In this document: positions 17,597 through 39,521 of the stretch, one piece after another
How positions within the stretch are numbered: position 1 is the first letter of the stretch
Layout: each line of letters opens with the position of its first letter
NCBI GenBank assembly: GCA_019454405.1
Contig: JACFOH010000008.1
Span: 49,106 to 90,161, forward strand
Direction: 5' to 3'
Length of the DNA stretch: 41,056 nt
Source of the DNA: Promineifilum sp.
GTDB taxonomy: Bacteria > Chloroflexota > Anaerolineae > Promineifilales > Promineifilaceae
The notes under the pieces: model-generated
The model's input: only the letters and a program-made list of their open reading frames with translations
What the model was told of the DNA's origin: nothing
The model's database searches: none
Made by a program: the position numbers and the translations under genes

Positions 17597-19936
17597 ATGA
17601 ATTCACTTACCCGATTTGTCGATAAGCGGCCAACTCTAGCGGTCGCCATCTTCTATCTTGTTTTGGCCCTGATATTTTTCGCCGGCGTCCTCGTGCCGTC
17701 TCCCGGGCAAGTATTGGCCGGGCATGACATGATCGGCAACTACTATATCTATTGGAACGTCGTGCGCGAGGCTTTACGGAGCGGCCACTTACCTCTCTGG
17801 GAGCCTGATATCTTTGGTGGCTTCCCTTTTCTGGCCCAACCGCAACAAAGCACTTTTTATCCGCCCACCTGGGTCAACCTGATCGTTCCCGTGCGGGTTG
17901 GAGTCAGCCTATATATGGTCTTTCATGTTTGGCTGGCTTCGTTCGGTATGTTTCTGTTCACGCGATATATGGGTGGTCGCCGGCTGCCGTCCATTCTGGC
18001 CGGGGTCGGATTCGCCTACGGTGGATTACTGACCGGCCGCCTGTGGGCTGGGCACCAGCCAGTGTATGCCGTTTTTATCTGGTCGCCTCTCATGTTGCTG
18101 GCGCTGGCCTGGGCGATCGACAGACGCCATTGGGCTGCGGCTGTGGTGGCCGGATTACCCTTTGCCCTCGCCCTGTTGGCCGGGCACATACCTTCATTTC
18201 TCTATGTTGGCCTCTTATGGGCCGCCTTCGCCGCCTATCTGTTCATAACCCGCGCTGGCGAGCGGTTGCTCGTAGTCCGAACGGCGGTTGTGATCGCGGT
18301 CGTGGGGCTGGCCCTGGCTGCGGTGCAGCTCGTGCCTTTCCTCCAATTTAGCGCGACATCCAGCCGTGTGGCTGAAGCGGATTACGAATTCGCCACCGAT
18401 TACTCGTTTCCGCCGGCCCATCTCGTGACATTGATAGTGCCGGAGTTCTTCGGCGAACCCACACAGGTGGGATATTGGTCTGTGCCTACGTTTGAGGAAT
18501 TGACCTATTACGCGGGGATCGTAGCTGTCCTGGGTATTATCCTGGCCCTGAGGCGACCGGATCGCCTTGCATGGTTCTATATCCTCCTCATCGTCTTCGG
18601 GCTGTGGCTGGCGTTTGGTCGTTACGGCGTGCTTTACGAGTTGGCCTATCGCTTCCTGCCGCCGTTTCGACTGGTGCGCGCGCCGGGCCGGGCTGCTTTC
18701 CTGTACCTCTTTGCCGGGTCAGCCTTGCTGGCTCATACGCTGACGATCTGGCGCAATCGGCCGGCCGATGAGCGCCGGCGTGCTCTGTGGCCCTATTGGC
18801 CGGTGGCCACATCTGTATTTGCCATCGCTCTGTTCGCGGCCCTGGCCGCCACGGGCGCAGTGTTTATGTCCGTTCACCCGACCGATACCAGCGGCCGCCT
18901 CTGGCAACAGATTGGCGGTTACTCGCTGGCCCTGGTTGTGGCCGGGACAGGCGCGGCGCTGATTTGGGCCTATCTTAACACGGCGGATATAGGCGACAAG
19001 GCGCGAGGTATGAATAGGCAGCTATCCGGCAATCTATGGCTGTCTACCGCCCGCCGGCGCGATGTTCTGGTCGGCATCGCGCTGATCACCCTTGCCGCTG
19101 CCGATACCTGGATGTTCAGCTACAAGATGGTGCGCACGGCTTCGACCGCTCCGGATCCTGTCTGGACTGACGGCCGTGCGCTTGTTGATGATCCGGCAGG
19201 CCGCGTTCTGCCCTGGGGCGTGCCCCTTTTCAGCCAGAATGGAGCGATGCAAGTCCATTGGCCCAGCGTGTTTGGCTACGATTCGTTAGAACCGGAGGCG
19301 CACATCGCTTTAGCTTCATCTGTGCCTGATCCGCGCTCGACGGCCTATGACATCCTGGGCGCGACCTATGTTCTGGCCGGAGGGCCGTTGGATCAGTTTA
19401 CCGAAGGCGAGCGAGGACTGACGCTCGTGGGACATCAGGGAGCGGCATGGGTCTATGAGCGGGCGCGGCCGTTGCCGGTCGCTCGACTGGTTTACGCGAC
19501 TGAGGTGATTGCCGATGGCGCCGCGGCCATAAACCGGATCCATGCCCCCGATTTTGATCCGGCGATGACGGCCATCCTTGCTAAATCTGCCCCTTGTTCC
19601 ACCGGCCCCTTGCCGGCTCAGCCTGGCGAGGTCGAGATATTATCTCATGAACCGACCCGTTGGAGGCTGCGAACTATCAGCGAAACTCCGGCTCTCCTCA
19701 TCCTGGCCGAAAATGCCTATCCGGGTTGGGGGGTGACGATTGACGGACAGCCGGCCGAATCCTTAACCGCCTATACCTCAGTTCGTGCGGTCTGCGTGCC
19801 GGACGGGGAGCATATCGTTGAATGGAGATTCTTCCCCCAGCTATATCTGGCAGGGGCGGCCGTATCTGTCGCCGCTCTCATCCTGATACTTACAGCCGTA
19901 TTTGTCCTGCGGCGACGTCCGGCATCCTCTTTGTAA
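17597..19936 (+). CDS. YfhO-family polytopic membrane protein
   Basis: A 779-residue integral membrane protein resembling the YfhO family, which is linked to sugar modification of cell-wall polymers in Firmicutes. The N-terminus starts with a membrane helix, then the typical first loop with GHDMIGNYYIYWNVVREAL and IFGGFPFLAQPQQSTFYPPTW, as in lipid-carrier glycosyltransferases of the GT-C type. Around ten to twelve hydrophobic segments follow up to residue about 510. The region about 530-740 is an extracytoplasmic beta-rich domain (LLILAENAYPGWGVTIDGQPAE is the family's C-terminal signature). One final helix precedes the Arg-rich end. It is probably a glycosyltransferase or polymer-modifying protein acting outside the membrane. 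No partner gene is adjacent; the patatin gene converges from the other side. Confidence 0.85.
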   Translation: MNSLTRFVDKRPTLAVAIFYLVLALIFFAGVLVPSPGQVLAGHDMIGNYYIYWNVVREALRSGHLPLWEPDIFGGFPFLAQPQQSTFYPPTWVNLIVPVRVGVSLYMVFHVWLASFGMFLFTRYMGGRRLPSILAGVGFAYGGLLTGRLWAGHQPVYAVFIWSPLMLLALAWAIDRRHWAAAVVAGLPFALALLAGHIPSFLYVGLLWAAFAAYLFITRAGERLLVVRTAVVIAVVGLALAAVQLVPFLQFSATSSRVAEADYEFATDYSFPPAHLVTLIVPEFFGEPTQVGYWSVPTFEELTYYAGIVAVLGIILALRRPDRLAWFYILLIVFGLWLAFGRYGVLYELAYRFLPPFRLVRAPGRAAFLYLFAGSALLAHTLTIWRNRPADERRRALWPYWPVATSVFAIALFAALAATGAVFMSVHPTDTSGRLWQQIGGYSLALVVAGTGAALIWAYLNTADIGDKARGMNRQLSGNLWLSTARRRDVLVGIALITLAAADTWMFSYKMVRTASTAPDPVWTDGRALVDDPAGRVLPWGVPLFSQNGAMQVHWPSVFGYDSLEPEAHIALASSVPDPRSTAYDILGATYVLAGGPLDQFTEGERGLTLVGHQGAAWVYERARPLPVARLVYATEVIADGAAAINRIHAPDFDPAMTAILAKSAPCSTGPLPAQPGEVEILSHEPTRWRLRTISETPALLILAENAYPGWGVTIDGQPAESLTAYTSVRAVCVPDGEHIVEWRFFPQLYLAGAAVSVAALILILTAVFVLRRRPASSL

Positions 19937-31732: not shown

Positions 31733-33133
31733 TTAGCCGCCGAGCGAATCCAGTGAAATCTGCGCGGGATAGAAATTCTTGTTGACGCCTAATGCCGCCT
31801 TATAAGCAGCGATCGCTCCGGGAATATCGCCCAGGTAAGCCAATGCATGACCCTTATACCAGAACGTTTCCTCGACATTGCGGCCGCCTTGCGTCTCTAG
31901 TGTCGCATTCGCAAGGTCGATGATGTCTTGATAACGATCCGTGCGCAGGTAAGCGAGGTATGGCTCGAACTGATACCACAACATTCGGGGCGGCAAACCG
32001 ATCTCACGAGCTCGGTCAAAGGCTTGTACGCCACCCTGGTAATATTGCGCCTCTCCGGTCAGGCCACCCATGCGAGTGAGGGCCGTGCCCAGATTGAACC
32101 AGGAAAATACATCATCAGGTCTGTCAACCGTCTCTTGTTCGGCGATCCTGGCGACCATTTGCCACATCTTGAAGTCGTCGAACATTTCCTCGCCCATCAG
32201 GGATTTGACCGTCGCTTCCTGTTCAGGCTTGTAGACGACATAAAAAGTATTGTTAAATTCTTGCCAGTAGGGCAGGAATTCGCGATAGGAATCGACGCGG
32301 CCGCTGCCGTCGAATGGGCCGAGGTAGGTGTCCTGACTATAAAGCTCCTGCAGATCATCGTCATAACCGTAGAGGGTAAGATAATGTCCCCACCAGCCTG
32401 ATTCAGGTAATTCGTAGCCTTTCTCAATCACGACCGGGAACCCTGCGGCCAGGAACCGCTTGAGAAGGTCCAGATCGCCGCCGCTGCGGGTGAGCGCGCT
32501 GTAGCCCGGCATCCGCTCGTTGACATAATCAGATATCTGCCACGGACTTACGTTGCGGTCTTCCGGGTTGGGCTTTAGGTAGGAAGCCACATCTTCCTGG
32601 GTGATTGGCGAGCCGTACCAGTTCAAGACCTGGGTCAGATTGGCTGGGCCGCAATTATTGAACGATTGCTTGACAACGCCCATCCCATCCAGCATCACCC
32701 GTTTCGGTAGAGGCATCGGTGTTGGAGTAGGGGCGGGGGTTTCTGTCGCCGCGAGGGTAGGTGTTGCGGCCGGAACTGCTGATTCTTCGGCCGCTTCGAC
32801 CTCTTGTACAGGGGCCGCTTCTTGTGTTACGTTGAGGGTCACATCGCCGGCCCCTTCACTGGCCACGGTGTCGACCGGCTGAGCGATGAGCGCCGAGATA
32901 TCGATCTGGGTTTCGGATACTTGTTGGGCCGCAGGCAGCGCCGTCGCTACCGGGGCTACCTGGGCGATTACCTCTTCAGATATCGCGCCCAGCGCCGGAT
33001 GGTTTTCTTGCAGCCAGACCCGATAGCGGCCGGGAATCGCCTGGACAACTGGCGGCAGCGCCAGCAAACCCAATATAATGATGACCTGACTGACTGCGAT
33101 AAACAGGATAATCCCTTTCGTTCTGTTGCGCAT
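31733..33133 (-). CDS. Exported C39-like cysteine peptidase with TPR domain (paralogue 2)
   Basis: A 466-residue protein beginning with a membrane or signal helix (residues 7-30), followed by a Ser/Thr/Pro/Ala-rich linker (60-145), a papain-like C39 domain (150-290) and C-terminal tetratricopeptide repeats (about 335-460). The catalytic triad is visible as Cys161 in FNNCGPAN, His250 in GWWGHYLTLYGYD and Asp268 in SQDTYLG. The TPR part is recognisable from DVFSWFNLGTAL, AVQAFDRAREIGLPP and GAIAAYKAALGVN. The ATG at 33133 is taken because it begins the hydrophobic helix; an open frame extends to 33250 but overlaps the neighbour, and no good ribosome site decides. It is a tandem paralogue of the gene at 33171-34514. 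Its target is unknown: peptide processing, cell-wall proteins or envelope remodelling are possible. Confidence 0.88.
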   Translation of the reverse strand: MRNRTKGIILFIAVSQVIIILGLLALPPVVQAIPGRYRVWLQENHPALGAISEEVIAQVAPVATALPAAQQVSETQIDISALIAQPVDTVASEGAGDVTLNVTQEAAPVQEVEAAEESAVPAATPTLAATETPAPTPTPMPLPKRVMLDGMGVVKQSFNNCGPANLTQVLNWYGSPITQEDVASYLKPNPEDRNVSPWQISDYVNERMPGYSALTRSGGDLDLLKRFLAAGFPVVIEKGYELPESGWWGHYLTLYGYDDDLQELYSQDTYLGPFDGSGRVDSYREFLPYWQEFNNTFYVVYKPEQEATVKSLMGEEMFDDFKMWQMVARIAEQETVDRPDDVFSWFNLGTALTRMGGLTGEAQYYQGGVQAFDRAREIGLPPRMLWYQFEPYLAYLRTDRYQDIIDLANATLETQGGRNVEETFWYKGHALAYLGDIPGAIAAYKAALGVNKNFYPAQISLDSLGG

Positions 33134-33170
33134 AGTAATTAGTGTAACTCCGTCCCCTGTTCTTCCGAAA

Positions 33171-34514
33171 TTAGCCGTTTGGAGAGAACAGGTTTGATAA
33201 CGCTTCTGAGGCCGGCGTGAAATGCGGATTGAAGGCGATGGCGGCTTCAAGGTTCTTGCGTGCCGAAGCAGGGTCGCCTAGCGCTGCTTGCGCCAACCCT
33301 AGATAGTAGAAGGATTCTTCGAAATAAGGCCGATCTTTCAAAGTCGTATCGGCCAGAAGAACCATGTCGTCATATCGACCCACTTGATAATAAGCTTCAT
33401 ACGGCCCGAATTGATACCATAGCATCCGCCATGGCAGGCCGATGGCTCGAGCCTGGTCAAATGCCACGGCCGCTTTCTCGTATTCACCGAGCGCATTGTA
33501 GCTTGTGCCCAGGTTGAACCAATAGAAAGCGTTATCCGGTTGTTTGGCGGCCGTGTCTTGCGCTCGTTCCAGGCTTGTTTGCCACATGACGTCGTCGTTC
33601 AACGCATTGCCTAGTAATTCTCCAACCATTGTTTCCTGTTCTGGTTCGTATAGCACGATGTAGGACCAGTTAAACTCCGACCAGTAGTTGTCCAGTTCGG
33701 CATAGGTCAGTACTCGCCCGTTAGGATCGGCGTTGGTTTGAGGCACTTCGCTCGTCCCTAGCCATGAGTCGTAGACCCATATCTGCTTTGTGGCGTCGTC
33801 ATAGGCTACCGGCAGCAGATAATGACCATACCAGCCTAGCCAGCGATACTCCCCTGGTGGATCGAAACCGATCTCGATGATGACGGGAACCTCATTTGCT
33901 AATAGTCGCTTCAACAGGTCCAGGTCGCCATTAACGCGGGCGATGGAGCGTAGCCCTTCCAGGGAATTCACGAAATCGGCCATTTCTTTCGGCGTTACAT
34001 TACGATCTTCCGGGTTGGGTCGCATTACGGCGGCGGTGTCGCGCTGGCTGTGGACTCGACCGAAGTAGGTTAACGCCATCACCATCGTAGCCGGGCCACA
34101 GTTGTTCCACTCCTGGTAGACGTGGGTGAAACCGCTCAGTCGTGCCGAAGCAGGCACGGGCCATGGCGTGGCTGTTGGCAAGGGAACCGGTGTGTTGGTT
34201 GGCACAATCTCTGTTTGAGCCTCATGAGCGCTGGCATCACTGGCCAGAGGTAAAGGGGTTGGACTGGGTGGCGGCTCAATAGTTGTCACCACCGGCGGCT
34301 TGTGGCCGTCGCTTAACAATCCGGCGGCCGCGCCGGGGGCGGCCACAGTTGGCAAGAGAGGTGTTGTATCGACCGGTAACGCCATCACTTGAAGGGGTTG
34401 GGGCAGTCGCATGGCGTAACGCGTCGGCAGCAGCCGTAACATGGACGGCGCCAGTCCAACGATTAGAATTCCTGCCAGCAGCAGGCCGATAAGCAGCAGC
34501 CTATTTTTCTTCAT
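33171..34514 (-). CDS. Exported C39-like cysteine peptidase with TPR domain (paralogue 1)
   Basis: A 447-residue protein with the same layout as its neighbour: an N-terminal hydrophobic helix (residues 5-28), a Pro/Thr-rich linker (50-122), a C39 domain (125-290) and TPR repeats (about 315-440). The triad is Cys139 in WNNCGPATM, His231 in WYGHYLLPVAYDD and Asp249 in WVYDSWLG. Shared stretches with paralogue 2 include PNPEDRNV, NGDLDLLKRLLA and FYWFNLGTS. It lies 37 bp upstream of paralogue 2 and shares the terminator. A possible promoter is at 34564-34592. The function outside the cell is unknown. The pair arose by tandem duplication and is now well diverged. Confidence 0.88.
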   Translation of the reverse strand: MKKNRLLLIGLLLAGILIVGLAPSMLRLLPTRYAMRLPQPLQVMALPVDTTPLLPTVAAPGAAAGLLSDGHKPPVVTTIEPPPSPTPLPLASDASAHEAQTEIVPTNTPVPLPTATPWPVPASARLSGFTHVYQEWNNCGPATMVMALTYFGRVHSQRDTAAVMRPNPEDRNVTPKEMADFVNSLEGLRSIARVNGDLDLLKRLLANEVPVIIEIGFDPPGEYRWLGWYGHYLLPVAYDDATKQIWVYDSWLGTSEVPQTNADPNGRVLTYAELDNYWSEFNWSYIVLYEPEQETMVGELLGNALNDDVMWQTSLERAQDTAAKQPDNAFYWFNLGTSYNALGEYEKAAVAFDQARAIGLPWRMLWYQFGPYEAYYQVGRYDDMVLLADTTLKDRPYFEESFYYLGLAQAALGDPASARKNLEAAIAFNPHFTPASEALSNLFSPNG

Positions 34515-34676: not shown

Positions 34677-37600
34677 CTACGTTTTTGGCGCGGTCGCGCT
34701 ACTATGGCCTTGAGTTTCCAGCCAGACGGACACTCCCAGAATAAGGGAAAAGACGAATGCCAGATCGATGAGGAACAGACTATGATCGACCAGTCCGTGA
34801 GCCAGCATGGCAACCAGTGCTCCGCCCAGCCCCGCCACAACCGGCAACCACTCTATGTCTGCTCGCCGGATCGCTCGAATTAGCTTATGACCAGCTTCCC
34901 AGATCATCCACCCACCGGCCAGTAAACCCAGAATACCGAGCCGCGTGGCAAGATCAAGAATGATATTGTGTGGGTGATTCAGATTAGGCTCTTGCCAGGC
35001 CGCATCGAGGATATACCGACCGCGGTATGCGTAGAGGAAGTTATCGAGTCCCACACCGAGCCAGGGGTGGTCGATGAACATGTTGGCGGCCGATCGCCAT
35101 AGATTAATGCGGAATACACCTGTCTCGCCGAACAGGTCAAGTCGCGCGGCTAAGGCTGGTATACGTCCGGCGACCAATAACGTCACGGCTCCGGCGGCAA
35201 CCGCCCCGAGGACCCACGGCCATGTTCGCCGCCCGGCCCGCCGCTGCCATACCCAAAAGACGAACAGCAACGAGGCGGGAATGCCTAGAAACAGCGCGCC
35301 CTTGCTGAACGTGAGCAGTAACGCTGCCCCAACCGGTATGATGGCGGCGGCGTAGAGCAAGCGCCGGCGACCGTGTATCGTTCGCGAACCCAGAAGTCCC
35401 ATCGCGATCAGAAGCGGCAGCAACCGATCCAGATAAAGCGCCACGTTATTAGGAGAGCCGTAAATGGAACGCAGGCGCAACAACCCGCCCTCGGCCGTGA
35501 TCAGGTCGTGGCCAGTGATATATTGCCATAGACCGTAAGCAGCGACGATGATTCCACTCAGGACAAAGCCGTCCAGAACGACCCACATTTCACGCGCGGT
35601 TGGCCGGATGGCACGCAACAGCAGATAAAACAGCGCCGGCTCGATGATAACCACGCGCCACTCGGATAGAGCGACGCCCAGCCGTTCGGTGAAGAAGAGC
35701 GATGCCGTGGCTACCGCTACGAAAGCAGCGACCGCCCAATCGGCGCGAATTATCCGAGGCCACTTGAGCTGGAATGAGCCCCGCCGTTTCGCTGTTCCGG
35801 CATCGAGTATGGTTCGAGTGAACCACGCGGCGGCCGTTACAAGCGTGAATACCTCTACCGGAGAGAATCGATAACCGAGGATCGGTTTGGTGAGAGGCGG
35901 CACATAGAATGGCGCTGTCAGGGCGATAAGAGCCAGGCCCCACGCTGGACGCAGGACGAGCAGGAGATACAAGCCAAATAACGCCAGCGAGAACAGGATG
36001 AACGACGGCGTGACGTAGAATACCGTCGCCGCCGCGGCCGTGGCCGCCAACTGGCCTCCATCACCTAGCCGCCGGTAGAGGCCCAGAGCGCCTTCACCCC
36101 ATGTTAGCCAGCCGGTAAGGGTCACCAGGGCAGCCGCACAAGTTGCCAGCAATAATTGGGTACGATCTGACAGGCGGTTGAATGTTCGCGCCAGTATGGC
36201 GCCAACAGCGCCCCAATCCGCCCGGCGCGCCGAATAGATGGCGCCGGCGAAGAAGAATAATGCTAATAAGCCTAGAGTAGCCCTGTGCCAGGGCTGCGAC
36301 AAACCCGACGGGCGATAACCAACACTGAAGCCACTGAGCGCCCACTGATCCCAGCCACGGGACGCCTCCAGTTCCAGAACGTGAACGCCTGGCGCGAGGT
36401 TGCGTGCGATTGGCTCGATAGTGATATAGTCTTCAGCCGGATCGGCCGAGGTCAATACCAGGGCCGCGCCGTTTTCATCGCGCGGTAACGCATTGGCCGG
36501 CCGGCCGTCGATAGTGGCATAGAACCGGGCGCGGAAATCGGCGCGTCTGACCTTGACGCCGATGTCGGTTCCCCAGAACGTCAATCGCACCCGATCTCCC
36601 GATTGGCCGATATCGGCCCCGAATTCCGGCGAAAACCTCCAGTTTCCCTCGAATATTTGCGATGGGTCATTGGGGGTGGCTGGATGAAACCCCGGCATGG
36701 CGATATCCGGCGATTGAGCTACGATAGCGGCAGTCAGAGCCGTAGCCGTCGCTCGTCCGGCGATGCTGAACCCCCAGCGTGGATCGCCAGCCGGCGCGTC
36801 CGGCTTCCAGTTTTCCAGAAAGAGTATGCCCATCCAGGGCCATTCTTGCCGGGCACGTTCCAGTCCGGCGACCGTTCGGCCAGCCTGCTGGGCCTCGCTA
36901 GTCTGGCCCCAGATCGATGGTTCGCCCGCCCACCCTGCGGGCAGGCTGTTCCAGCCCCAATTGCCCGCCCAGATTGCCTTGTCGCTGTCACCGTTATCGA
37001 TCATCACTTCGCGCAACAAGATAGGGCGGCTGAAATTGAGCCGGTCGATATTGACCGTGCGATCTTCAGGCCCGGTGTCGAAGCCGTAGGGTTTGGCGGC
37101 AACGATATCGAACGAACCGGCCGCACCTGCCTTGTAGAGCGCGGCCAGATAGAGTGGGTCGGCCAGGTTGTCCGGCCCCGTTTCCCTCGTGGGAGCCAGA
37201 GGGGCGGCGACGATCACGGCATCGGGATCGTGGTGGCGAATCGCAGTTGCCGCCGCTGAAAGCAATGCGGCATATTCGCCAGGATTTACCGGCTGGTTAC
37301 CCCAATGGCTCGTCAGATTCGGCTCGTCCCAGATGATGTAGGCCGTTAGCCGATCGCCGTAGCGCCGGGCGAATTCGCCAGCCCATTCTGCGAAGACGTT
37401 GACATCGGCAGGCGGCGAGAAGCCTGCCTCCGGATCGCCATCCAGCAGCGGAACGAGGGTTAACCCCTCAGAGGTTATGGCATCCACCAGCCGGTCGGCC
37501 GCTGGCCAATCGAAGGCGTCGTTGAAATAGAACGATTGCTTGACGAGATCGATGCGCGCCGCCCGAATATCAGCCAGGGTTGTGTGTAATTCGGCGTCGC

Positions 37601-37811
37601 TGGCCCCATCCAGATAGACATTAACGCCCAGGCGTGCTCCGCCGTTCGGGATCGCGTCGGGCAGCCCGGCCGGAATACCGCGAAGAAGGTAAGCTTCCCG
37701 AGCTTCCAGCGAGCCAATGGACAACAAGCATGCCGCGGCTAGCGCCAGGGCAACAATCGCGAGCAGCCGCCAACGCCGGAGATGAGAAGGAACATGCAGA
37801 TGACTATTCAC
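34677..37811 (-). CDS. Glycosidase-like domain fused to an O-antigen ligase/polymerase-like membrane domain
   Basis: A 1044-residue protein in three parts. Residues 1-35 are a signal or membrane helix. Residues about 55-380 resemble a glycoside hydrolase clan-A TIM barrel (GVNVYLDGASDAELHTTLADIRAARIDLVKQSF, YIIWDEPNLTSHWGNQP, VAAKPYGFDTG, ILLREVMIDNGD), with the WDEPN segment likely holding the acid/base Glu and REVMI possibly the nucleophile. About 390-500 is a beta-sandwich reminiscent of a carbohydrate-binding module. From about 515 to the end there are some 12 membrane helices and an O-antigen ligase (Wzy/WaaL-like) loop with HPHNIILDLATRLGILGLLAGG. The GTG start has no clear ribosome site. 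Coupled with the lipoprotein gene 21 bp upstream. Probably makes or modifies an extracellular polysaccharide. Confidence 0.85.
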   Translation of the reverse strand: MNSHLHVPSHLRRWRLLAIVALALAAACLLSIGSLEAREAYLLRGIPAGLPDAIPNGGARLGVNVYLDGASDAELHTTLADIRAARIDLVKQSFYFNDAFDWPAADRLVDAITSEGLTLVPLLDGDPEAGFSPPADVNVFAEWAGEFARRYGDRLTAYIIWDEPNLTSHWGNQPVNPGEYAALLSAAATAIRHHDPDAVIVAAPLAPTRETGPDNLADPLYLAALYKAGAAGSFDIVAAKPYGFDTGPEDRTVNIDRLNFSRPILLREVMIDNGDSDKAIWAGNWGWNSLPAGWAGEPSIWGQTSEAQQAGRTVAGLERARQEWPWMGILFLENWKPDAPAGDPRWGFSIAGRATATALTAAIVAQSPDIAMPGFHPATPNDPSQIFEGNWRFSPEFGADIGQSGDRVRLTFWGTDIGVKVRRADFRARFYATIDGRPANALPRDENGAALVLTSADPAEDYITIEPIARNLAPGVHVLELEASRGWDQWALSGFSVGYRPSGLSQPWHRATLGLLALFFFAGAIYSARRADWGAVGAILARTFNRLSDRTQLLLATCAAALVTLTGWLTWGEGALGLYRRLGDGGQLAATAAAATVFYVTPSFILFSLALFGLYLLLVLRPAWGLALIALTAPFYVPPLTKPILGYRFSPVEVFTLVTAAAWFTRTILDAGTAKRRGSFQLKWPRIIRADWAVAAFVAVATASLFFTERLGVALSEWRVVIIEPALFYLLLRAIRPTAREMWVVLDGFVLSGIIVAAYGLWQYITGHDLITAEGGLLRLRSIYGSPNNVALYLDRLLPLLIAMGLLGSRTIHGRRRLLYAAAIIPVGAALLLTFSKGALFLGIPASLLFVFWVWQRRAGRRTWPWVLGAVAAGAVTLLVAGRIPALAARLDLFGETGVFRINLWRSAANMFIDHPWLGVGLDNFLYAYRGRYILDAAWQEPNLNHPHNIILDLATRLGILGLLAGGWMIWEAGHKLIRAIRRADIEWLPVVAGLGGALVAMLAHGLVDHSLFLIDLAFVFSLILGVSVWLETQGHSSATAPKT

Positions 37812-37832: not shown

Positions 37833-39521
37833 TCAGCGGCCAGCGGCGGCGCCATAGGGCGCCCAGGTAGGATGACTGCCGGCTGCGTCGTCCGACCCCG
37901 CCCGATATAGTTCACCGGTCGCCAGATTCAGGATATGCAGCTCATCATTGAAAATGAACGCGATATGATTCGAGTCCGGCCCCCAGGCAATCGATTGGGA
38001 AGAGCGAGCAACCGTGCCTCGCTCCTCATCAATAGGGAAGATACGCCGGGCCTGCTCACCATTGCTATCGACCATCCACAAACTGTAATCGCTGTTCTCC
38101 TCGCCGGCTGGATCATCAATACGCGACAGGGCCAGTTGCTCGACATCGCCGGACATGGGGGACCATTGTGCGATCGACCAGATGCCAACGTTCGAGAGCG
38201 TCCAGATGACGTTGCCGGTTGATAGGTTGACCACAACCAGGTTGAAGTCGCTCCCATCGTCCGTATTTTCTGTGAAAGCCAGAAGCTGGCCGTCGGCCGA
38301 CCAAACCGGGTTGGGTAGCCAGGCCCAGTCTGCATGGGTCTCATAAGCCGGGAATGTGTGAAGAATGGTTCGCTCCGGCTCGATTGCGCTGGTGAAGCCA
38401 GCTATGTCGTCGGAGAGCGTCTCGGGAATTTCAAGGATGCCGACTTCATCCGCGAAAGCATAGGCCAAGCGATCGCCTGTGGGCGCCCAGGCGAAGGTCC
38501 CGCCCCACCAACCGAATGTGGCCGGCATCGTCGTAATCAAGCGTATCGGTGCGGGCGGGTCATCATTCAGGACCACTTCCATGAGCCACAAGTCGTTGTT
38601 GGCCTCCCAACCTGGCGGTAGAGATATAGAACGAGCCGTTGTGTAAGCGATGCGTAGGGGGGCTAATCCAGCCGGATCCCAGCCGGCCCATAAGACGTTC
38701 TCGACCCGAAGCGACTGCGGCAGTCCCCCTTCGGTGGTGGGGATTATCCATAGCTCGTTCCGGAATTCGGTCTGACCTGCTTCTTCCCCCTTGCCGATCG
38801 TATAGAGCAGGTAATGACCGCCGGGGGATAGCTGGAAGACGCGCCCGTCAAGTTGTCCTTCGATGGGGAGTTGGCGGGCCGAATCGGTTGATCCTGTCAG
38901 GATAATCGCTCGGCCGCCGCTGATATAAGCCAATCGACCAGTGATCTGCATGCCCGGTTCATCTTCGCGCACGCCGATCATGACGATCTCATCTACCGCC
39001 GGCTCGATGATTGCCGAAGTCGTGGGCCATCGTTCGGTCTCCAGTCCGTCGCGGAAGACGATGCGATAACTGGTTTCCTTGAGACCGGTTACACCCGTTT
39101 GAAGGATACGTGGCGGAGCTTCGGGGTCCATCTCCGCACTACGTACGATTCGGCGCGCATAGGGGATATTTTCGGGGATGACTTCCAGGCTCTCGGTCAC
39201 GCGCACGATCGTGATCGTCACCGGCGCCCCGTCTTCTTTTGTGGATAGTTGGGTGCCCAGTGGGGGATCGACCTCATCGAATGGGCCGATATAGATGCCT
39301 GCCTCATCCAGGGCGTCGCTGACGGTTGCCGCTGAGGTGACGGTCTGCCGCGATTCTCCATCGGTTATCACCGTCACAGTACGGGGCGTATCTTGCGCAG
39401 CCGGAACTCTATCGTCCCGACCGACTGTCGTGCAGGAAACCATCAACGCCAGCCAGCAGCCCAGGAAGGCGTAGACGATCTTTATTTGATAGGCGGAAGT
39501 CGATCGCGTTGGGCGTCGCAA
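37833..39521 (-). CDS. Lipoprotein with DUF348/G5-type domains and a WD40/TolB-like beta-propeller
   Basis: A 562-residue exported lipoprotein. The lipobox ends at LMVSC (Cys29), following a short hydrophobic segment. Residues about 45-110 look like a DUF348 repeat (TVTVITDGESRQTVTSAATVSDALDEAGIYIGP). Residues about 110-185 are a G5-like domain (TESLEVIPENIPYARRIVR and the RIVFRDGLETERW block). The rest, from about 190 to 550, is a beta-propeller with repeated WSADGQLLAF-, WAPTGDRLAYA- and WGPDSNHIAFI-type strands, as in TolB/DPP-like proteins. DUF348-G5 pairs usually occur in cell-wall-binding proteins such as Rpf. The start is TTG at 39521, 14 bp after the DUF2267 stop; AGGTGA lies 10 nt upstream. 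It likely acts at the cell surface, perhaps in peptidoglycan or polysaccharide binding; no enzyme site is evident. Confidence 0.82.
   Translation of the reverse strand: MRRPTRSTSAYQIKIVYAFLGCWLALMVSCTTVGRDDRVPAAQDTPRTVTVITDGESRQTVTSAATVSDALDEAGIYIGPFDEVDPPLGTQLSTKEDGAPVTITIVRVTESLEVIPENIPYARRIVRSAEMDPEAPPRILQTGVTGLKETSYRIVFRDGLETERWPTTSAIIEPAVDEIVMIGVREDEPGMQITGRLAYISGGRAIILTGSTDSARQLPIEGQLDGRVFQLSPGGHYLLYTIGKGEEAGQTEFRNELWIIPTTEGGLPQSLRVENVLWAGWDPAGLAPLRIAYTTARSISLPPGWEANNDLWLMEVVLNDDPPAPIRLITTMPATFGWWGGTFAWAPTGDRLAYAFADEVGILEIPETLSDDIAGFTSAIEPERTILHTFPAYETHADWAWLPNPVWSADGQLLAFTENTDDGSDFNLVVVNLSTGNVIWTLSNVGIWSIAQWSPMSGDVEQLALSRIDDPAGEENSDYSLWMVDSNGEQARRIFPIDEERGTVARSSQSIAWGPDSNHIAFIFNDELHILNLATGELYRAGSDDAAGSHPTWAPYGAAAGR

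Follow-up and report, generated by a model that had tools for sequence, protein, structure and literature searches.

Two tandem genes for C39-like proteins with a predicted membrane anchor

A 41,056-nucleotide stretch of DNA from Promineifilum sp. (contig JACFOH010000008.1, positions 49,106 to 90,161), here called the window, carries two neighbouring paralogous genes, A and B, on its minus strand. Their products are predicted to be membrane-anchored enzymes that combine a C39-like peptidase domain with tetratricopeptide repeats (TPRs). B is taken to start with the ATG at 33133, which is backed by relatives and lies 37 bp past the stop codon of A. A longer open reading frame (ORF) for B, with 505 amino acids and overlapping the end of A, was rejected, as its start is unsupported by relatives. 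The features are as follows, in window coordinates.

33171..34514, minus strand: gene A, C39-like peptidase with TPRs, predicted to be membrane-anchored, 447 amino acids (ORF, Pfam, relatives, model)
34434..34508, minus strand: A, N-terminal membrane helix, residues 3-27 (DSSP of the model, hydropathy)
34161..34352, minus strand: A, Pro/Ser/Thr-rich linker, about residues 55-118 (sequence; lower model confidence)
33639..34160, minus strand: A, C39-like catalytic domain, about residues 119-292 (PF13529 at residues 130-251; domain model)
34113-34115, minus strand: A, putative oxyanion Gln134 (alignments of relatives)
34098..34100, minus strand: A, putative catalytic Cys139 (alignments of relatives)
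33822..33824, minus strand: A, putative catalytic His231 (alignments of relatives)
33768..33770, minus strand: A, putative catalytic Asp249 (alignments of relatives)
33189..33632, minus strand: A, helical TPR region, about residues 295-442 (TPR_1, TPR_2 and others over cut-off; model helices)
31733..33133, minus strand: gene B, paralogue of A, 466 amino acids, 37 bp downstream (ORF, Pfam, relatives)
32216..32719, minus strand: B, C39-like catalytic domain (alignment coordinates; PF13529 at residues 156-270)
32666-32668, minus strand: B, putative oxyanion Gln156
32651..32653, minus strand: B, putative catalytic Cys161
32384..32386, minus strand: B, putative catalytic His250
32330..32332, minus strand: B, putative catalytic Asp268

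Both proteins are built in the same order, with an N-terminal membrane helix, a Pro/Ser/Thr-rich linker, a Peptidase_C39_2 domain and a TPR region. Among 61 ORFs of the family, a 19-residue hydrophobic segment lies ahead of the C39 domain in 59, the other two being N-terminally broken copies, while the linker has a median length of 101 residues with 40% Pro, Ser or Thr, and a lipobox is present in none. TPR models of Pfam exceed their cut-offs in A only, the best in B scoring 20.3 bits against a cut-off of 27.8, although the TPR region of B can be aligned with that of A over its whole length. A terminator scan found 3 candidates, compared with a mean of 3.2 in shuffled sequences.

Active site and predicted fold

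Peptidase_C39_2 (PF13529) scores 40.8 bits in A and 39.6 bits in B, above its curated cut-off of 24, and is matched by all 39 domain rows at an E value of 0.01. In the aligned family ORFs, His and Asp are found in 61 of 61, and the Cys and the Gln corresponding to Gln134 in 60 of 61 each, with one gap in either case. All four residues are invariant in a 62-row alignment with a mean column identity of only 31%, which leaves a catalytically dead peptide-binding protein barely conceivable. Residues N334, G336, P361, Y367, Y375, E399, E400 and N429 of the TPR part are also invariant in the 62 rows, so that the TPR part is a constant piece of the family rather than a loose add-on.

An AlphaFold model of A, made with the 62 rows, has a mean predicted local distance difference test score (pLDDT) of 90.9 and a predicted template modelling score of 0.86. 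From the N-terminus onward it shows the membrane helix (residues 3-27), a linker of low order, a compact domain of the papain type (about 119-292) and then an array of helices as far as residue 442. When the catalytic domain of A is modelled alone, the pLDDT is 93.1. The fold and the exported layout of A and B are well supported, and a hydrolytic activity is putative, from the sequence family, the predicted fold and the invariant triad.

The original prediction, made from the window's letters, had described tandem exported paralogues with a signal helix, a Pro/Thr-rich linker, an intact Cys-His-Asp triad and TPR repeats, and the two ORFs carry all of these features. It had left the choice between free or surface-anchored proteases and peptide-binding proteins. 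Surface anchoring agrees with the membrane helix and linker, but peptide binding alone is unlikely because the catalytic residues are invariant.

Likeness to known enzymes

When a profile of the domain was compared with all PDB sequences, the pseudomurein endoisopeptidase PeiR was the best match, with an E value of 0.0039, and the only one under 0.05. In this alignment Gln, Cys, His and Asp are in register, a GHY motif falls on GHY, and the Cys falls on C90 of PeiR, which is the residue changed in the companion PDB entry PeiR-C90A. Both Foldseek lists of PDB structures were also headed by PeiR (8z4h), which resembles the domain with a fold Z score of 16.7 and a root-mean-square deviation of 2.3 over 144 aligned residues at 22% identity. 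Endolysin profiles of PHROG are matched by 18 and by 8 of the 39 domain rows.

PeiR is described as carrying pseudomurein-binding repeats ahead of a peptidase domain of C39 type (PMC6189367), and the PeiR-related enzymes PeiW and PeiP are reported to cleave the Ala-epsilon-Lys isopeptide bond (PMC4592898). PeiR is a lysin of a methanogen virus, whereas A and B are cellular, membrane-anchored and equipped with TPRs; pseudomurein-binding repeats are not among the Pfam matches of A and B at an E value of 0.05.

Two sequence families come near as well. A and B score as members of Peptidase_C39_2 and have its Cys, His, Asp and Gln residues, but PF13529 at large is a domain found in many architectures, whereas A and B fuse it with a membrane helix, a linker and TPRs. 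Peptidases of the PA2778 family have a C39-plus-TPR layout and a partner, PA2779. Likeness to that family (NF033920), which covers C39 and TPR parts, is weak, with 29.6 bits for B (residues 155-372) and 26.8 bits for A (residues 298-358), both far below the cut-off of 150 bits.

In fold, PeiR is tied at a Z score of about 16-17 with the C39 domains of PCAT1 and ComA, a C39-like protein of B. anthracis, the phytochelatin synthase Alr0975 and an entry called P210 CD lyase. The presence of Alr0975 in this group brings up acyl transfer instead of hydrolysis, in which a Cys acyl-enzyme would hand a peptide to an amine or thiol as in phytochelatin synthase; such a reaction could, for instance, attach or cross-link peptides of the wall or proteins of the surface. 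The domain model matches acyl-enzyme structures of Alr0975 at Z 16.1, within 1 Z of the peptidases, and transfer would be compatible with the exported layout. However, the best sequence match, PeiR, is a hydrolase, and we consider acyl transfer improbable.

The exporter domains of PCAT1 and ComA have the same fold as the domain of A (Z 15.4-16.7), but A and B are without a transporter part, their catalytic domain is predicted to be extracellular, and no leader-peptide partner was seen. Pfam finds no ATP-binding cassette (ABC) domain in A or B, and none of the further ORFs of the window that were scanned belongs to an ABC family, in line with the earlier remark that no transporter is near. The earlier reading had set beforehand that the triad should superpose on C39 structures and that homologues should not always be exporter parts. 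In the event, Cys, His and Asp align with PeiR and the domain model matches C39 domains at Z 15-17, while no exporter subunit occurs in the neighbourhoods read. The exporter-type peptidase PF03412 has no match in four of seven family genomes, namely G000 (71% complete) and G003, G004 and G013 (97-98%). G030 has its two best PF03412 matches within open frames of 749 and 596 amino acids, which are probably real exporters, so that some relatives hold both kinds; matches in G001 and G022 lie mostly in small or C39_2-like frames. A link to bacteriocin exporters was rejected on the missing ABC part, the scanned window ORFs without an ABC family and the four genomes without a PF03412 match.

A maturation protease for double-glycine leader peptides, working apart from an exporter, would fit the shared fold with the PCAT1 and ComA peptidase domains and the weak PF03412 matches of 8 of the 39 domain rows. 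On the other hand, C39 domains of exporters are cytosolic, opposite to the predicted extracellular side of the A and B domains, four of the seven genomes are without a PF03412 match, and no recurrent small gene was seen around the pair among ORFs of 80 amino acids or more. We regard leader maturation as very improbable. The double-glycine leader model TIGR01847 is matched in none of the seven family genomes and likewise in none of 14 controls.

Conservation and history of the pair

The ratio of nonsynonymous to synonymous substitution rates among five congeners ranges from 0.07 to 0.20 for A and from 0.05 to 0.17 for B, with one B pair saturated. As judged by these ratios, the pair is under purifying selection and does not consist of chance ORFs. 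Among 59 relatives, A is matched in 54 and B in 48. The original prediction had suggested looking for the pair in other Chloroflexota, and A is directly followed by B in 28 of the 35 genomes of Promineifilum's family, its own included, as read off the coordinates of A and B matches. In one of the others (G010) a gap of 1.5 kb separates A and B, and six have no visible pair, with fragments or single copies instead. Across genera, A then B is the only conserved gene order at the window pair.

In a 107-row tree made with the quick method FastTree, A-type (30 rows) and B-type (26 rows) proteins of the window's family form two sets with 99% support, so that the pair descends from one old duplication. 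Other tandem pairs arose separately in this tree, for example L164 and L179, L134, and L148.

The wider family of C39-TPR proteins occurs in 170 of 298 Anaerolineae genomes sampled (E 1e-20) and, phylum-wide, in 36 of 201 genomes (E 1e-15), 16 of them outside Anaerolineae. The best 80 loci of our named collection are all from Chloroflexota. In the window's own genome, 71% complete, PF13529 is matched only by A and B. A has no match in 50,697 phage records, and one IMG/VR contig holds a relative (L250:4001-5221, 36% identity over residues 5-439). A phage gene family was rejected as far as these phage records and the single contig show.

Association with a MurJ-family gene

Of 66 named loci in which the sequence reaches far enough, 28 have a MurJ-family gene adjoining the C39-TPR gene, downstream in 27 and in reversed order in one (L172, where it precedes the C39-TPR gene). 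All 27 downstream genes are on the same strand within 1.5 kb, and 24 of them within 130 bp. A downstream MurJ gene is found at 26 of 41 single-copy loci and at 1 of 25 tandem loci. Two linked MurJ-family genes were confirmed by Pfam PF03023 (272 bits).

A class-wide sample was composed of loci from 36 Anaerolineae families, chosen to avoid counting close kin. The MurJ link is present in 19 of them, downstream in 18 and reversed in one. These family counts test every ORF; greedy ORF picking hides the C39-TPR gene in L198, L199, L209, L216 and L223, which are MurJ-linked when every ORF is tested.

One locus from each of the 19 linked families was compared, and these loci have 19 clusters of genes upstream of the couple and 18 clusters of genes behind it. 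Because the outer flanks differ nearly everywhere, simple sharing of gene order fails to account for the link, and a couple that is kept amid changing flanks and an order inversion is usually held by function. Since each of the two main halves of the tree includes MurJ-linked members, such as L146 and L141, the link probably has an early origin and disappeared along the branch that led to A and B. RodA-like and transpeptidase genes are also close by in some C39-TPR loci. The C39 domain itself is known; in the literature searched, we found no published account of the C39-TPR family, of the anchored layout or of the MurJ link.

Proposed role at the cell wall

The recurrent MurJ neighbour in relatives and the likeness to wall-lytic enzymes suggest a role at the cell wall. 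As our leading but tentative reading, for which we see somewhat less than an even chance, A and B would be membrane-tethered extracytoplasmic cysteine endopeptidases or amidases with a C39-like papain fold that act on cell-wall peptides while docked through their TPRs. The single N-terminal helix would anchor each protein at the outer face of the cytoplasmic membrane, and the linker would allow the catalytic domain to extend into the layer of the wall, where Cys-His-Asp and the oxyanion Gln would cleave an amide bond, either peptide or isopeptide. The most likely substrate would be the peptide part of the wall or of a lipid-linked wall precursor. The C-terminal TPRs may dock the enzyme to a partner in the wall-building machinery, represented in many relatives by the MurJ-family flippase of the adjacent gene. 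On the branch to which the window belongs, a duplication gave rise to A and B, both of which are kept, and the MurJ adjacency is gone. We infer the wall substrate, the docking by TPRs and a division of labour between A and B.

NlpI of E. coli is a TPR protein, and its client MepS a papain-fold NlpC/P60 enzyme, a domain that is not among the Pfam matches of A and B at an E value of 0.05. This adaptor places the endopeptidase MepS near wall-synthesis complexes (PMC11211486). The comparison serves as a working analogy only, since adaptor and enzyme are two proteins there but would be joined in one chain here.

Several observations weigh against a role at the wall. The sequence match to PeiR is modest, Pfam finds no wall-binding domain in A or B, and the fold does not name the substrate, as its scores are tied across PeiR, exporters and phytochelatin synthase. 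MurJ adjacency is missing in 17 of the 36 Anaerolineae families, in all six families sampled outside the class and at the window's own pair. At E 1e-20, 128 of the 298 class genomes are without a C39-TPR gene, while the MurJ and FtsW/RodA families are each present in 297; the gene is therefore no core component of wall synthesis. Co-occurrence with wall synthesis in the class genomes lends no support, as families that are near-universal cannot explain the presence or absence of C39-TPR. MurJ-family matches also number 1 to 6 per class genome, and the one beside C39-TPR may therefore serve a different lipid-linked glycan.

The strongest rival is a general or regulatory surface protease, in which A and B would cut exported or membrane proteins or peptides in quality control, shedding or nutrient peptide use, and the MurJ link would reflect envelope genes expressed together. 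The incomplete MurJ link, its absence at the window and the many genomes without the gene fit this rival, TPRs usually bind proteins, and staphopains and other secreted cysteine proteases are equally close in fold (Z 14-15). The repeated MurJ adjacency with changing flanks and the matches to PeiR and endolysin profiles, however, suggest a narrower role. We regard the surface protease as quite possible, if doubtful. If the substrate turned out to be a surface protein, the family would still identify one of the principal anchored proteases in a major bacterial group of sludge and sediment.

Taken further, the cell-wall reading would make the C39-TPR protein an undescribed wall enzyme of Anaerolineae, a papain-fold endopeptidase with its own TPR adaptor, leashed outside the membrane and working with a MurJ-family flippase. 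It would couple the cutting of old wall, or the trimming of precursors, to the delivery of new units, with two specialised copies in Promineifilum and its kin. In this full form we think the proposal rather unlikely. To our knowledge, little is known of how Chloroflexota build and open their cell walls, and the C39-TPR gene, with its presence in 170 genomes, its invariant active site and its recurrent MurJ-family neighbour, is a concrete candidate, open to testing, for a wall enzyme whose work is tied to the export of precursors. It would also be a case of a C39-like fold employed outside bacteriocin export.

Other neighbouring genes

Part of the family shares envelope genes before A and metabolic genes after B, the latter including aldehyde dehydrogenase, coenzyme A-transferase and aminotransferase genes in several genera. 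Those after B were set aside as partners, since their functions appear to be metabolic and most pairs are without them. No other recurrent neighbour was found in loci without MurJ, where ten neighbours belong to the AAA, S9 hydrolase, GNAT, PhyH, GSDH, Fe-ADH or YfhO families or to no family.

Three further genes of the window were noted.

34677-37811, minus strand: 1044-amino-acid protein with an O-antigen ligase (Wzy_C) part near the C-terminus and a weak carbohydrate-esterase-like match in its long N-terminal part
37833-39521, minus strand: protein whose DUF348 and G5 domains precede a beta-propeller-like part
17597-19936, plus strand: 779-amino-acid protein without a Pfam match at an E value of 1e-5

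The Wzy_C protein and the G5 protein are encoded upstream of the pair only in the window's genus (5 loci); DUF348 and G5 domains are wall-associated in other bacteria. A relative of the 779-amino-acid protein, scoring as YfhO, is encoded directly upstream of the C39-TPR gene in L071. In the genomes of L076, L091 and L098, the region upstream of the pair contains a gene with an SHGC motif, which we take to be L,D-transpeptidase-like, and a thioredoxin-like gene. Genes for a metallo-beta-lactamase-fold protein and a phosphoglycerate-mutase-like metalloenzyme lie downstream of C39-TPR and MurJ in L146 and L151, and members of the two are present in 21 and 18 of the 80 named loci, respectively.

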